Source: Comamonadaceae bacterium (GTDB lineage: Bacteria; Pseudomonadota; Gammaproteobacteria; Burkholderiales; Burkholderiaceae_C). Taken from it: a stretch of 64,000 bases of DNA. Below are positions 23,319 through 40,888 of this stretch, piece by piece. Numbering within the stretch: position 1 is the first letter of the stretch; every line of letters starts with the position of its first letter. The notes beneath the pieces were generated by a model, which searched no databases, was not told the DNA's origin, and saw only the letters and a program-made list of their open reading frames with translations. The translations under genes were made by a program, and so were the position numbers. The stretch lies in the NCBI GenBank assembly GCA_947373185.1, contig CANBWP010000007.1, positions 37,365 to 101,364 on the forward strand, read 5' to 3'.

Positions 23319-23327
23319 GTGAGTCAG

Positions 23328-24032
23328 ATGATTCCTATTCATGTCGAATCCGCTTGGAAAGGCACTTCCGATTGCCGCTCGTGTGGCATTCGAGATTTAG
23401 TTTTGTTCGCCGATCTGAATGAAGACGATTTTGGTCTGATTCACGCACCCATCGACGACATGGCCTACCCGGTGGGTGGTTTGCTTTACTCAGAAGGTGA
23501 CAAAGCCCTGGGGGTGTTCACGCTGCGTCAAGGCATGGTCAAGTTGATTCGATCTACAGCAGACGGTCGTGAACGCATTATTCGTGTCTTGCGCGCCGGC
23601 GATGTGGTGGGTATTGAAGCATTGGCCACAGGGCATTTCGATTCAGAAGCAGTGGCTCTCAATGATGTGAAGGTATGCCGCATACCCTTAGGTGTGATGC
23701 ACAACCTTAGTACACAATCCCCCAGACTTCACAACCGCTTGATGCAGAAGTGGCAGCAGGCTTTAAAAGGCGCAGATGATTGGCTGGCCGATTTAAATTT
23801 TGGAACCGCTCGCCAACGGGTTTCTAAATTTATTCTGAAAATGCGCCATGACAATTTGCCAGATCAAAGCAGCATGTTTTCACGTGAAGACATGGGCGCC
23901 ATGATGGACCTCAAACTGGAGACTGTCAGCCGCGAAGTCAGTGGCTTGGTGCGCGAACAAGTCATAGTGCCCCTTGATAAAGCTGGGCGGCTATATCGAA
24001 TTCAAAACGCGAAAGCTTTGAATTCCGCCTGA
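23328..24032 (+). CDS. Crp/Fnr family transcriptional regulator
   Basis: cNMP-binding-like domain, HTH with LETVSREVSGL (E-x-x-S-R); N-terminal CRSCGIR. Confidence 0.9.
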   Translation: MIPIHVESAWKGTSDCRSCGIRDLVLFADLNEDDFGLIHAPIDDMAYPVGGLLYSEGDKALGVFTLRQGMVKLIRSTADGRERIIRVLRAGDVVGIEALATGHFDSEAVALNDVKVCRIPLGVMHNLSTQSPRLHNRLMQKWQQALKGADDWLADLNFGTARQRVSKFILKMRHDNLPDQSSMFSREDMGAMMDLKLETVSREVSGLVREQVIVPLDKAGRLYRIQNAKALNSA

Positions 24033-24196: not shown

Positions 24197-24382
24197 GATT
24201 TTCTCCTTCAGTGTGTTGATGAATTAGCAAACTCAACGATTGCATCTTGACAGCGAAACAACAAGTTCAGTTTGATCTGCATTAAGTTTTGTGGAGATTT
24301 GATCCACAAAAAGTGCTGAACATACGTATACTTTGGAGGGGTATATTTAGAAGTACTTGAATTGATAGAAATGGTTCGCACA

Positions 24383-31702: not shown

Positions 31703-32803
31703 TTATTTATTGCTACCGTTGGCAATCCATTCTGCAATCAGCCGTGCATCTGCATCACTTAAGTTTTGCGCTGGCATGGGGATGGCACCCCAAACACCTG
31801 AACCGCCTGACTTGATTTTGCCTGCAATGTAATCGACTTTGCCTGGATATTTTTTTGCAATGTCGTTAAAGCCTGGACCCACAATTTTCTTGTCGACGCC
31901 GTGGCATGCTGTACAGACGTTTTTGCTCAACAGGGCCATGACGGCTTTGTTGTCAGCTTTGCCATCTGCTGCTTTGGCTGGTGTGGCTGGCGATGGACTT
32001 GGGGCGGGAGCGCTGGTACCTGTTTTGCCAGCACTGCCTTCTGCCTTGGAGGTGTCGGCGCCCTTTTGCTGGCCGACCATGCGATTTTGTTCACTCAAGT
32101 TGCCATGGGCATTGCGTGCAAAGTCGGGTAAGAAAGAGGCCACTTTGGCTTCTGGTTTGCAATCCTTCATGCAAATTGTATTTTGCGTGTCGGGTTTGCT
32201 GGTGCCGCCAAATTCTTTGCCTGGCCACATGGCGTGAGATGTGGTCATGCCATTGCGGTTAGGCATGCGTTTTTGCACCTCTGCAATGTTTTTGTCAGAC
32301 AACACAAAGTCATCGGGCACCACGCCTGCCAAGTTCAATAAGAACCCAGTGACTGCGTAGACTTCTTCTGTGGTGAGTGTCTTGGGATTGGTCCAAGGCA
32401 TGGCACGGTTGATGTAGTCCCACAAGGTTGACACCGTCGCCACCTTCATGATGGTGGTGCGGCCAGGGAAGTCTGTGCGCGTTAGATTGGCCACACGTCC
32501 AGTTTTGATGTCTTCTGCGGTGGTGCCACCAATCAAGGGGCTGAAGACCTCGTTGGATTCACCAAAAATACCGTGACATTGCGCACATTTGGCTTCCCAC
32601 ACATCTTGGCCTTTGGCCACAGAACCAGAGCCTAAAGGCAAGCCTTTAAAGTCGGGGCGAACATCAATGTCCCAAGCCGCAACTTCCTTGGGGGTGGCGT
32701 CTCGACCTACGCCTGGGTATTTGGTGCTTTGCGCAAATGCAGGTGCAGATACAAAGGACAGGCCAATGGCGATGGCCAGCAAAATCTTAGGAAACTTGAA
32801 CAT
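31703..32803 (-). CDS. soxD: Sulfane dehydrogenase cytochrome subunit SoxD
   Basis: Two CxxCH motifs (CAQCHG, CTACHG); follows soxC. Confidence 0.92.
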   Translation of the reverse strand: MFKFPKILLAIAIGLSFVSAPAFAQSTKYPGVGRDATPKEVAAWDIDVRPDFKGLPLGSGSVAKGQDVWEAKCAQCHGIFGESNEVFSPLIGGTTAEDIKTGRVANLTRTDFPGRTTIMKVATVSTLWDYINRAMPWTNPKTLTTEEVYAVTGFLLNLAGVVPDDFVLSDKNIAEVQKRMPNRNGMTTSHAMWPGKEFGGTSKPDTQNTICMKDCKPEAKVASFLPDFARNAHGNLSEQNRMVGQQKGADTSKAEGSAGKTGTSAPAPSPSPATPAKAADGKADNKAVMALLSKNVCTACHGVDKKIVGPGFNDIAKKYPGKVDYIAGKIKSGGSGVWGAIPMPAQNLSDADARLIAEWIANGSNK

Positions 32804-34175
32804 TTTTCACCTCGCCATTTTCTTGCACCAACCATGACTGAATGGCATTGTTGTGATAGATCGAACGTGTACCGCGCACATCGCGCAGTTGTTTGTACAT
32901 GGGCTGGACATAACCTGTTTCATCTTGTGCGCGGCTTTGGATGATGGCGGGCTTGCCATCCCAGACCCAATCTAAGTTGAAGCGGGTGAGCGCTTTTGAC
33001 AACACCGGTGTTTCAAGCCTTGCTTGACGCCAGTTGCGACCGCCATCGGTTGACACGTCGACACGTTTGATCTTTCCTTTGCCCGACCAAGCCAAGCCAG
33101 TGATGTTGTAAAAACCTTTGTCCAACAAAACTTGGCCGCCCGAGGGTGTGGTGACCACGCTCTTGCATTCTTGAATGTTGGTGTACTGACGGTGCAAACC
33201 ACCGGGTTGCAAATCGATGTAGTGCACGGCTTCGTCTTTGGCAGCGTAAGGCTGATCACCTACTTCAACGCGGCGCAAATATTTGACCCAACTTACACCT
33301 TGAACACCCGGTACCACCAAGCGCAAGGGATAGCCATTTTCTGGCCGCAGCATTTCGCCGTTTTGGCCATAGGCCACCAACACTTCACCTGATGTGATCA
33401 GGCTCATGGGAATGGTGCGTGTCATGGCTGAGCCGTCGCCGCCTTCGGCCAAAACAAACTTGCCATTTTTCAAATCGGCACCCGCCAACTCAAGCAGGGT
33501 GATGAGCGGCACGCCTGTGAATTCACTGCAAGACAACATGCCGTGTGTGTATTGCACTGTGGGCACCGCCACATTGCCCCAATCGACCGCCGTATTGGCG
33601 CCGCATTCAATGAAGTGAAAGCGTGAGACGGAGGGCAAGCGCATGATTTCGTCCATGGTGAAAACCTTGGGTGCTTTCACCATGCCATTGATCATGAAGC
33701 GATGTTTGGAGGGATCGATGTCCCACCAGCCTTGGTGGTGACGCTCAAAGTGCAGGCCGCTGGGCGTGATGATGCCAAACAAAGATTGCAAGGGTGCAAA
33801 AGAAACAGATGCCTGTGTGGTTTGTGTCAAACCAGGGCTTTGGCGTCGTTGCAAATTGGATTCGAACTTGGAGGGTTTGCCGTAACCTTCCGTGGCGACG
33901 CCTTGACCCAAGCCAGTGGCATGCTCTGGCAATTTCAAAATGTTGGGGTCGCCACCTTCCGTTGGGATGGGATTACTTTGCGCCCATGCAGCGGGGGCAG
34001 AAACTGCCGCAACTCCGGCTGCAGTCGCCGTGGAGGCTGCAGCAAATGCACGTCGGATGAAATCGCGACGGCCTTGTTTGCCCTCTGTAAAAACCGTTTT
34101 CACATCGGCGGGTGTGAGGAAGTTTTCTGGTGCCTTGAGCACCCGACCTGAGGCGTTGAGTTGTTCTTTCACCAT
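32787..34175 (-). CDS. soxC: Sulfane dehydrogenase molybdopterin subunit SoxC
   Basis: Sulfite-oxidase fold, Tat signal, SRFHFIECGANTAVDW... and SCSEFTGVPL. Confidence 0.94.
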   Translation of the reverse strand: MVKEQLNASGRVLKAPENFLTPADVKTVFTEGKQGRRDFIRRAFAAASTATAAGVAAVSAPAAWAQSNPIPTEGGDPNILKLPEHATGLGQGVATEGYGKPSKFESNLQRRQSPGLTQTTQASVSFAPLQSLFGIITPSGLHFERHHQGWWDIDPSKHRFMINGMVKAPKVFTMDEIMRLPSVSRFHFIECGANTAVDWGNVAVPTVQYTHGMLSCSEFTGVPLITLLELAGADLKNGKFVLAEGGDGSAMTRTIPMSLITSGEVLVAYGQNGEMLRPENGYPLRLVVPGVQGVSWVKYLRRVEVGDQPYAAKDEAVHYIDLQPGGLHRQYTNIQECKSVVTTPSGGQVLLDKGFYNITGLAWSGKGKIKRVDVSTDGGRNWRQARLETPVLSKALTRFNLDWVWDGKPAIIQSRAQDETGYVQPMYKQLRDVRGTRSIYHNNAIQSWLVQENGEVKNVQVS

Positions 34176-34220
34176 ATCTCCTGGTTGCGCTATTGCTGCC
34201 GCTCTGATGACAAAGTTTAT

Positions 34221-34236
34221 ATAAGTCTTCGCTTAT
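34221..34236. promoter_or_regulatory. Inverted repeat ATAAG-N6-CTTAT upstream of soxC (candidate operator)
   Basis: Read directly; 46 nt upstream of the soxC ATG. Confidence 0.45.
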
Positions 34237-34311
34237 TTATTTCTTTGAATTGTCTTTGCAGTGGCTGAACTCAAAATTACAAATAAAGACGTTGATTGTG
34301 TTTGGCCTGTG

Positions 34312-34345
34312 CTTGGCTAAATTGATTTAAATCAATTCAGCCAAG
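34312..34345. promoter_or_regulatory. 34-bp near-perfect dyad containing a consensus FNR/FixK-type box TTGATTTAAATCAA (34322-34335)
   Basis: CTTGGCT-A-AATTGATTTAAATCAATT-C-AGCCAAG read directly; matches known consensus TTGAT-N4-ATCAA. Confidence 0.65.
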
Positions 34346-34474
34346 TTTTATGACTTTTTGGCCAATGATTGGCCGCATTCACAGGTCTTCATTGACGCTG
34401 TGATCTTCAAGGGAAATCAAATCTTGAGATATTAGAAAATACCCTAGGGGGTAAAGTAAGTTGGGCGTCAGCCT

Positions 34475-34795
34475 TTATTTGAATTTGTAATGGTCGCGAT
34501 TGAGTACAGCTGCTATCGCTGTGACCTCTTCAGGAAAAAATCCCAAATTAAGTTCTGTGTTGCACTGCTCTACCATGCCTCTTAAAAACCCTGGGGTATT
34601 GATGCGGCCTTGGGGCTTGTAGATGGCACTGCCATTGCCCCCCACGCGGCGTTGGTGACAGGCGTCGCAGTTGTTTTGTTCAATCAACTGCTGACCCAAT
34701 TTGAGATCTGCATCTTTGAAGACGACGGGTTGAGCCGTGGCCTCAAGGGTCAGAACAAAACCAAATAGTGCAAATTTTAGAAATTTCATATTCAT
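34475..34795 (-). CDS. Small mono-heme c-type cytochrome
   Basis: Signal peptide and CDACH heme motif. Confidence 0.75.
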   Translation of the reverse strand: MNMKFLKFALFGFVLTLEATAQPVVFKDADLKLGQQLIEQNNCDACHQRRVGGNGSAIYKPQGRINTPGFLRGMVEQCNTELNLGFFPEEVTAIAAVLNRDHYKFK

Positions 34796-36612: not shown

Positions 36613-36626
36613 TTGACGCATGTCAA
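36613..36626. promoter_or_regulatory. TTGACGCATGTCAA, FNR/FixK-type box (TTGA-N6-TCAA) between the two YeeE paralogues
   Basis: Read directly; about 64 nt upstream of the second paralogue start. Confidence 0.5.
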
Positions 36627-36689
36627 TTCAAACTGGCAGCTTGTTGGTAGCATCTTGATCAGTCCATGCTGATTTGAAGAGGGTTGCCC

Positions 36690-37763
36690 GTGAGTTTTGC
36701 ACTGAATGAAGTGATTGAAATATATGGCGAAGGCACCGTCCTAGCCATCGGTGGCGCCGTGATTGGTGTGCTCTTCGGATTTTTTGCGCAACGGTCCAAG
36801 TTTTGTTTGCGTGCCGCTGTCATTGATTTTTGGCATGGGCATTTCAAAGACAAACTCTCCATTTGGTTGCTGGCTTTTTCTGCTGCCGTCATCGGCACAC
36901 AAGCTTTGGTGTTGTGGGGTGGATTGGACAGCAGTGGTGCACGCCAAATTGCAGCGCGCGGCAGTTTGTCGGGTGCCATTGTGGGTGGCTTGATGTTTGG
37001 CGTTGGCATGATCTTGACGCGGGGTTGTGCCAGTCGCTTGCTCATTTTGTCGGCCAATGGCAATTTACGCGCCTTACTCTCTGGATTGATTTTTGCCGTG
37101 GTTGCGCAGTCGAGTTTGTCGGGGGCACTCATGCCCGCAAGGCTAGCCATCAGTGAATGGTCAACCTTGGATGGCGGACCAGGCCGTGACCTGTTGGCCA
37201 TGGCAGGGGTAGGTCATGCCACTGGCTTGGCCATGGGTGTGGTGTGTTTGGTCATGGCCATTTATTTTGTCAGCCGCAGCAGCAGCAAGCCTGTGATGTT
37301 GTGGGTGGGCGGCATTGGCACTGGTTTGTCAGTGGCTGCTGCATGGGGCTTCACGCAATGGGTGGCTAAAAATTCATTTGAACCGATTCAAATTCAAGGA
37401 CTGACCTTCAGTGGTCCCTCCGCTGAGTGGTTGATGCGGGTGTTGCAATCGCCTGCACCGAAAATTGGTTTTGAATTTGGCTTATTGCCTGGCGTGTTTT
37501 TAGGATCCTTCTTGGGTGCCTTGGTCGGGAAGGAGTTTCAACTCGAAGGATTTAAAGATGGCTACAGCATGCGCCGTTATATTGTGGGCGCCGTGCTGAT
37601 GGGCTTTGGCTCGATGCTGGCTGGCGGCTGTGCCATTGGGGCAGGGGTCACGGGTGGCGCTATTTTTGCGCTGACCGCATGGGTGACCTTGGTGGGCATG
37701 TGGTTGGGTGCTGGTATCACCGATCGGTGGTTGGATTCCCCCGCCAACCACCGGCACCCTTAG
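36690..37763 (+). CDS. YeeE/YedE family (TsuA-like) transporter, paralogue 2
   Basis: FAQRSKFCLRAAVIDFW, TRGCASRLLILSANGNLRALLSG, LAGGCAIGAGVTGG; likely GTG start. Confidence 0.9.
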   Translation: MSFALNEVIEIYGEGTVLAIGGAVIGVLFGFFAQRSKFCLRAAVIDFWHGHFKDKLSIWLLAFSAAVIGTQALVLWGGLDSSGARQIAARGSLSGAIVGGLMFGVGMILTRGCASRLLILSANGNLRALLSGLIFAVVAQSSLSGALMPARLAISEWSTLDGGPGRDLLAMAGVGHATGLAMGVVCLVMAIYFVSRSSSKPVMLWVGGIGTGLSVAAAWGFTQWVAKNSFEPIQIQGLTFSGPSAEWLMRVLQSPAPKIGFEFGLLPGVFLGSFLGALVGKEFQLEGFKDGYSMRRYIVGAVLMGFGSMLAGGCAIGAGVTGGAIFALTAWVTLVGMWLGAGITDRWLDSPANHRHP

Positions 37764-40049: not shown

Positions 40050-40475
40050 TCAAGGACGGATGTAAACAAAGCCAGACTTGGCTTGCAGGTTGGCAACCTC
40101 AGCAACGCCAGAAGGCACAACAGAAGCTTCCATCACCACTTTTTCTTTTGGAATTTTGCGGGTTTCAAGCGTGTTGTTGCAGACATCGAACTTCACGCCT
40201 TTGGAGGCCAGGTCACCGATGGTGCCTGCAAAGGGTTGACCTGACGGTGTCATGGCGCCCTCCAATAAAAAATCAATGCCAGGACCGTGCGTAACCACCG
40301 TAATTTTGGCGTTGGGGTCGGCGGCCAAATGATTGCGAATGTTGCCCATGGCGCGAGCTGCTTGAGCCAAGCCTTCGTTGAGGTGGTAAACCACTTTGGT
40401 TTGGGCATGTGCTGCTGCGGTGAAGCACAAAGCAAGAGTCAGTCCGCATGTACGGATCAAAGACAGGGTATTCAT
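40050..40475 (-). CDS. Secreted DsrE/DsrF-like family protein
   Basis: Signal peptide; KVVYHLNEGLAQAARAMGNIRNHLAADPNAKITVVTHGPGIDFLLEGA and VKFDVCNNTL. Confidence 0.85.
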   Translation of the reverse strand: MNTLSLIRTCGLTLALCFTAAAHAQTKVVYHLNEGLAQAARAMGNIRNHLAADPNAKITVVTHGPGIDFLLEGAMTPSGQPFAGTIGDLASKGVKFDVCNNTLETRKIPKEKVVMEASVVPSGVAEVANLQAKSGFVYIRP

Positions 40476-40543
40476 TAGCCATTCCTTATTTATCTAGATG
40501 TTAATCTGGCACGAAGGTGCATGGGCACAGTACTAACCCGACT

Positions 40544-40888
40544 TCAAACTGACTCGAGACTTTCAGTGGCGATTTGGGTGCAGACCGCGCGGCAAAGGTC
40601 TACAAAGCTTGGGTTGGCAATGCTGTAATAAATTTGAACGCCATCGCGGCGTTTTTGAAGAATGCCAGCTTGGTACAAAGTACTTAAATGCTGCGACATG
40701 TTGGATTGCGTGGTGTCGACTTCTTCCAGCAACTCACTGACATTTTTTTCACCCGCACACAAGCAACTCATGATTCGCAAACGCATGGGTGCCGACATCA
40801 CACGAAAGATTTCAGCGGCACGGTTGAAGGTGGCGTCGTCTTTTTCGAGTTTTTCGAATTGAATGTTTTTGGTTTTGCTGGCTCGCAT
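40544..40888 (-). CDS. ArsR-family transcriptional regulator, SoxR/BigR/SqrR-like
   Basis: wHTH MSAPMRLRIMSCLCAGEKNVSELLEEVDTTQSNMSQHLSTLYQAGILQKRRDGVQIYYS; sox context; ATG at 40888. Confidence 0.85.
   Translation of the reverse strand: MRASKTKNIQFEKLEKDDATFNRAAEIFRVMSAPMRLRIMSCLCAGEKNVSELLEEVDTTQSNMSQHLSTLYQAGILQKRRDGVQIYYSIANPSFVDLCRAVCTQIATESLESV

Follow-up and report, generated by a model that had tools for sequence, protein, structure and literature searches.

The gap upstream of soxC in the analysed DNA (the window, a stretch of 64,000 nucleotides) lies in a genome of 2.79 Mb, the named relatives of which belong to freshwater Limnohabitans. On balance, this gap probably comprises a two-promoter control region for the soxCDYZAXB operon of thiosulfate oxidation and the remnant of another promoter, with an FNR-type box lying inside a hairpin. 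The best-supported reading is layered control of soxC, with a putative FNR-type activator at a distal promoter (P1) and a putative ArsR-type repressor at a proximal one (P2), since dyad 2 has the properties of an FNR-type box and dyad 1 occupies the place of an ArsR/SoxR operator. Such layering of redox and sulfur control had been suggested in the initial annotation. It is favoured by the conserved core of dyad 2, the class II -10-like hexamer, the co-occurrence of the box with the regulator P0001 and the position of dyad 1.

From these features we infer binding, promoter activity with its transcription starts, the sign of regulation and an RNA role, as follows. At P1, an FNR/CRP-type dimer on TTGATTTAAATCAA at about -41.5 would activate the weak -10 hexamer CACAAT in a class II manner; its likeliest binder would be the sox-linked P0001, although the genome's canonical FNR (G000:C6:21536) is an alternative. 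At P2, an ArsR-type SoxR would block the TATATA within dyad 1 and leave it in response to sulfane sulfur. In transcripts that come in from upstream, the outer arms of dyad 2 would place the operator at the tip of an RNA hairpin, originally one at the 3' terminus of the lipoprotein-fadL message. The deletion of that operon (about 2 kb), which the sequences show, as they do the conservation pattern, the covariation, the synteny and the co-occurrence, brought dyad 4 and the junction palindrome, dyad 3, beside the soxC control region. The coordinates of all features are given in Table 1.

Table 1. Genes, inverted repeats and promoter elements considered in this work (window positions).
Feature	Position	Strand	Remarks
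soxC	32787-34175	minus	NCBIfam TIGR04555, 587 bits; first gene of soxCDYZAXB
Small CxxCH cytochrome-like gene	34475-34795	minus
Dyad 1, inner, ATAAG-N6-CTTAT	34221-34236
Dyad 1, extended, TAAATAAG-N6-CTTATATA	34218-34239	minus	candidate ArsR/SoxR operator over -10 TATATA of P2
TGTAAT-N6-TTCA element	34266-34281	minus	conserved, in 26/30 Limnohabitans soxC loci
CACAAT	34295-34300	minus	proposed -10 of distal promoter P1; fixed offset +29 to +34 in six lineages
Dyad 2, 17+17	34312-34345	minus	94% complementary, one imperfect pair
18-bp conserved core of dyad 2, AATTGATTTAAATCAATT	34320-34337	minus	from lineage comparison
FNR-type core of dyad 2, TTGATTTAAATCAA	34322-34335	minus	exact match to TTGAT-N4-ATCAA
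Dyad 3, GGCCAAT-G-ATTGGCC, GGCCAATCATTGGCC	34360-34374		at deletion junction between two homology blocks
Dyad 4, TACCC-N4-GGGTA, TACCCCCTAGGGTA	34440-34453	minus	resembles CsoR/CstR-type operators
P0001, FNR-like regulator	23319-24032	plus	CxxC, third cluster cysteine missing, C120, ETVSR recognition helix
FNR-like site before rhodanese gene, TTGATCTGCATTAA	24272-24285	plus	right half departs from FNR consensus
CAAAAA	24307-24312	plus	-10-like hexamer of rhodanese promoter
ArsR-family regulator	40544-40888	minus	conserved cysteines; SoxR-type candidate for dyad 1

Origin of the soxC gap and its distal repeats

No plus-strand gene is present in the gap between soxC and the cytochrome-like gene (34176-34474). 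Both flanking genes are on the minus strand, which is therefore the strand that matters. The four inverted repeats of the initial annotation were all recovered at the positions it had given, by direct reading of the sequence and with a repeat finder. The locus was compared with 90 Limnohabitans genomes. In relatives whose soxC is 97% identical, the cytochrome gene is followed in turn by genes for a DUF302 lipoprotein and a fadL-like outer membrane protein, then by the gap and soxC. In the sense direction, bases 1-100 of the window's gap match the sequence directly 3' of the cytochrome gene in a relative, while bases 134-299 match the sequence directly 3' of fadL, about 2 kb further on. These two separated blocks of homology indicate that the lipoprotein and fadL genes were lost from the window's genome and that the 300-bp gap is the fusion left by a deletion of about 2 kb. 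The order that includes both genes is also found in more distant Limnohabitans (G054, G020, and G060) and is on this ground regarded as ancestral.

It follows that dyad 4 and dyads 2 and 1 stem from two different control regions. Synteny assigns dyads 1 and 2 to soxC and dyad 4 to the cytochrome or lipoprotein-fadL side, with dyad 3 at the junction, so that the grouping of all four as one soxC cluster is not retained. Conservation upstream of soxC is observed within the clade for dyads 1 and 2; dyad 4 is kept on the cytochrome side, and dyad 3 was not found in the relatives. By itself dyad 3 is not significant: about 4 occurrences of GGCCAAN3TTGGCC are expected per genome, and the window contains 2.

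TACCCN4GGGTA, the motif of dyad 4, occurs once in the window, against about 0.5 expected per whole genome. The sequence TTACCCCCTAGGGTAT, including its loop, is conserved downstream of the cytochrome gene in G003, G031, G035, and G019 and in the second soxC locus of G031, in relatives both with and without fadL. Type 2 CsoR operators have a consensus of TAC, C/G tracts and GTA (PMC3902906); dyad 4 reads TAC-X8-GTA with a C tract, compared with TAC-X9-GTA with G/C tracts. If an operator, it would act on the cytochrome side or on the operon that was lost. The single CsoR-family protein of the genome (G000:C8:61563-61733; L137) has two cysteines and no histidine, a CstR-like pattern, and adjoins rhodanese and two YeeE/YedE-type genes.

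Dyad 4 may instead be the terminator of the cytochrome gene, which we regard as possible but not probable. Its 5-bp stem, 4-base loop and following TTTTC on the minus strand fit this function, as does a second ACCCCTACGGGTTTTTTT that follows in G003. However, the loop CCTA and the flanks are exactly conserved while the T run is not (TATATAAGG and TATAATATT in relatives), and a similar motif stands before the rhodanese gene, where ATACCTAAGGGGGTATA of the relatives resembles CsoR-type operators.

The FNR-type box, P0001 and a proposed distal promoter

The initial annotation was correct in describing the core of dyad 2 as an exact match to the FNR/ANR consensus. The 34-bp dyad is far beyond chance expectation, and the window contains 3 matches to TTGAYN4RTCAA where 0.36 would be expected. 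The 18-mer AATTGATTTAAATCAATT was detected in 6/90 genomes of the genus, all seven copies coming from the site upstream of soxC or from a contig end there. Each genome carries one copy, at a single place, which rules out a dispersed repeat or mobile element; the exception is G050, with two contig ends. Both of these contigs (L131 and L136) begin with the 18-mer, one running into soxC and the other back into fadL, and because of this shared start they probably abut, the assembly having broken at the palindrome. Variants of the core occur at the same spot in G076 (GATTGATTTAAATCAATT) and G030 (TTGACATAAGTCAA).

When six lineages were lined up on the centre of dyad 2, all 18 core positions proved conserved in at least five of the six, none of the 19 positions at offsets 10-28 was conserved, and all six at offsets 29-34 were, reading CACAAT in five lineages and CATAAT in G030; these lineages belong to one clade with few evolutionary events and a poorly resolved internal tree. 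Constant spacing over 19 free bases would be expected of a class II FNR promoter with its site at about -41.5 and the hexamer as its -10. The hexamer CACAAT is a weak -10, matching TATAAT at 4/6 positions, and a generic promoter scan, which found no sigma-70 promoter, did not detect it. The TGTAAT hexamer was considered as the -10 of a class I FNR promoter, for which a distance of about -60 to -62 would fit; it is not preferred, because this distance differs by 2 bases among lineages and because the element is found throughout the genus without an FNR site. Among 80 named loci examined in other genera, none outside the same clade had the box before soxC.

A candidate ligand of the box is encoded in the window by P0001, the regulator already named in the initial annotation, which adjoins tauE and rhodanese genes. 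The iron-sulfur cluster of Escherichia coli FNR is held by C20, C23, C29, and C122. In P0001 the first two N-terminal cysteines and the central one are present, and the third is missing in all orthologues, for which reason it is not a canonical FNR; its NCBIfam Fnr score is 80.6 against a cut-off of 228. The canonical FNR (G000:C6:21536) has CxxCx5C plus the central cysteine (CSNCNLRELC and VC). The helix that reads TTGAT (E-x-x-S-R) is ETVSR in both proteins.

Orthologues of P0001, 92-94% identical, are encoded in exactly seven genomes (G000, G003, G006, G030, G031, G070, and G076), every one of which has the box or the TTGACATAAGTCAA variant. Four genomes with close soxC genes (G035, G019, G033, and G041) have neither the orthologue nor the box. 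The box without a P0001 match is found in G050, a fragmented genome that is 82% complete. Since the window's genome (G000) lost fadL and kept both box and P0001, the occurrence of the box tracks that of the regulator, not that of fadL. The co-occurrence is a correlation with few events, as this small clade has an uncertain branching order.

Exact TTGATN4ATCAA sites number 19 in the genome, about twofold more than the approximately 9 expected. Intergenic boxes lie before rquA, between genes for a CopA-like P-type ATPase and a universal stress protein, and before c-type cytochromes; such genes are expected of an FNR regulon. At L003, L010, and L006, boxes are found before rquA (rhodoquinone synthesis), in the interval between the copper-type P-ATPase and universal stress genes, and between rpoH and a CIRCE-like element. 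The sequence TTGACGCATGTCAA (36613-36626) is located between a convergent tsuA-like gene and the ORF at 36659-37201, and L154, L155, and L157 have TTGAC/GTCAA-type motifs in a comparable position.

The second FNR-like site, near P0001, has a comparable arrangement. In 6/7 clade genomes TTTGATCTNNRTTAAG precedes the rhodanese operon, with C-A-(A/T)-A-A-A at +28/29 from its centre, the same spacing as at the soxC box. The rhodanese promoter (24261-24365) also contains a CsoR-type pseudopalindrome, TACTTTGGAGGGGTA, which reads TACCCCTTGGGGTA in G076.

The covarying arms of dyad 2

On the soxC strand, the outer arms of dyad 2 read CTTGGCTG/TAGCCAAG in the window and, among other lineages, AGCAGCAG/CTGCTGCT, CACAGAGG/CCTCTGTG and TGACAGCC/GGCTGTCA. 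Eight outer positions differ between lineages and yet pair within each, giving 46/48 standard pairs across the six lineages, compared with an average of 3.6/8 when arms are paired between species. Only 1 of 720 permutations of the arms, the true one, reaches 46 pairs. These counts were made on centre-anchored sequences, MAFFT alignment having misplaced the divergent arms. The standard pairs that are not Watson-Crick, four in number and including one at offset 9, are all G.U on the soxC strand and none A.C. In two lineages the minus-strand fold is the stronger because of these G.U pairs (-20.4 vs. -17.6 and -31.0 vs. -17.9 kcal/mol). The maintained complementarity of the arms and the G.U pairs on the soxC strand suggest that an RNA hairpin is formed by the same bases as well. 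The initial annotation had offered such a hairpin as an alternative; its existence is supported, but on the minus rather than the plus strand, because the imperfect pairs are G.U on the former and A.C on the latter.

In relatives the hairpin starts 10-20 bases 3' of the fadL stop codon. Hairpins of unrelated sequence occupy the same place in fadL-bearing lineages that lack the FNR core, a hairpin after fadL being found in 7/7 lineages tested (z -2.7 to -7.0). The presence of hairpins in lineages without the core suggests that the hairpin is probably older than the FNR site. No T run follows it in relatives, and the window's minus strand continues with CACAGGCC; with no T run on the transcribed strand, dyad 2 differs from a classical intrinsic terminator. 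Its likeliest function is to mark an mRNA 3' end or to stabilise the mRNA.

Taken together, one sequence may be used twice, as the hairpin ending an upstream mRNA and as an FNR-type operator, which would place sox under oxygen (FNR-type) and sulfur (ArsR-type) control; we hold this reading tentatively, somewhat short of an even chance. With similar reserve, the top of the hairpin may be held by protein recognition and the base of its stem by pairing alone.

According to a simpler explanation, dyad 2 is an FNR-type operator only, its arms having grown by template-switch (quasi-palindrome) mutations with no RNA role. Perfect short palindromes are hot spots for quasi-palindrome correction, and some lineages do have perfect palindromes of 34-36 bp. 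This explanation appears unlikely, as it accounts neither for the restriction of all four imperfect but pairing positions to G.U on the soxC strand nor for hairpins after fadL where the FNR core is absent, small though the numbers are in both cases.

The converse, that dyad 2 is only an RNA hairpin (an mRNA 3' end, a stabiliser or a tail-less terminator) with incidental likeness to FNR sites, is slightly less likely still. It is consistent with the covarying arms and their G.U pairs, with the position shortly after the fadL stop codon and its occupation by other hairpins in other lineages, and with the TTGACN4GTCAA motif between convergent genes at window position 36613. A hairpin, however, requires neither that the 18 bp at its top be kept to the letter while its arms change nor that a hexamer lie at a constant distance beyond it; the box, moreover, is kept in the genome without fadL and co-occurs with P0001. 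Finally, a plus-strand intrinsic terminator is highly improbable: the TTTTATGACTTTTT tail noted after dyad 2 does exist, yet on the plus strand, where no gene lies upstream, no T run is found on that side in relatives, and the plus strand has the A.C mismatch.

A proposed proximal promoter and comparison with known systems

For extended dyad 1, 0.02 occurrences are expected per window even with 3 mismatches. Its arms, TAAATAAG-N6-CTTATATA, recur upstream of soxC in most of the clade, also where the FNR box is absent, and the six-base middle is free. Other Limnohabitans have ATATTCG-N6-CGAATAT at the same place, before the soxR gene (ArsR family) that precedes soxC and downstream of the conserved TGTAAT-N6-TTCA element. 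The window's ArsR protein has the same conserved cysteines as those SoxR proteins. Dyad 1 is thus most likely the operator of an ArsR-type SoxR over the proximal promoter: like a SoxR operator, it is an inverted repeat over the core promoter with a free spacer and conservation in relatives, its assignment to ArsR being by position. A sequence search for another ArsR operator in the window gave only a half-good match with 3 mismatches (40471-40492, minus strand). This partial match, TAAATAAGGAATGGCTAATGAA, is located at the start of dsrE, which leads a flavocytochrome c cluster. The TGTAAT-N6/7-TTCA element lies upstream of the sox operator with or without an adjacent soxR, at a larger distance in the window's clade.

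The coupling of sox genes to oxygen supply is poorly known, the published regulators being sulfur-sensing repressors (ArsR-type SoxR and CsoR-type TTHA1953). The locus predicts a specific oxygen/redox input and names both regulator and promoter, and relatives with and without both box and regulator constitute a natural experiment. An operator and a 3' hairpin on the same bases would also be a clear case of two kinds of constraint separable by position.

In Thermus, sox genes are controlled by the CsoR-family regulator TTHA1953 (PMC10318464). With CsoR-family control of sulfur genes (TTHA1953, CstR) and with type 2 CsoR operators, the locus has in common a TAC-C/G tract-GTA pseudopalindrome, and the genome has a single CstR-like protein beside rhodanese and YeeE/YedE genes. 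In contrast to these systems, TAC and GTA are separated by 8 bases in dyad 4 instead of 9, and the dyad belongs to the cytochrome/fadL side rather than to soxC.

In Hyphomicrobium denitrificans, sox genes are repressed by the sulfane-sulfur-responsive ArsR-type SoxR (PMC10451225). The window's locus is similar in having an ArsR protein with conserved cysteines and a dyad overlapping the proximal soxC -10. It differs in the location of the regulator gene, 6-7 kb away, and in the second, FNR-type promoter predicted upstream. The arms of dyad 1 (ATAAG/CTTAT) also differ from those of other Limnohabitans (ATATTCG/CGAATAT).

Within the literature searched, no paper connected FNR with a sox operon. 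With class II FNR/ANR promoters, in which TTGAT-N4-ATCAA lies at about -41.5, the soxC site shares the exact consensus, an unconserved spacer and a -10-like hexamer 21 bases past the site, and like them it precedes a respiratory electron-donor operon. It is distinguished from them by the genes that it would control, those of the sox operon, and by an operator that forms the top of a covarying hairpin.
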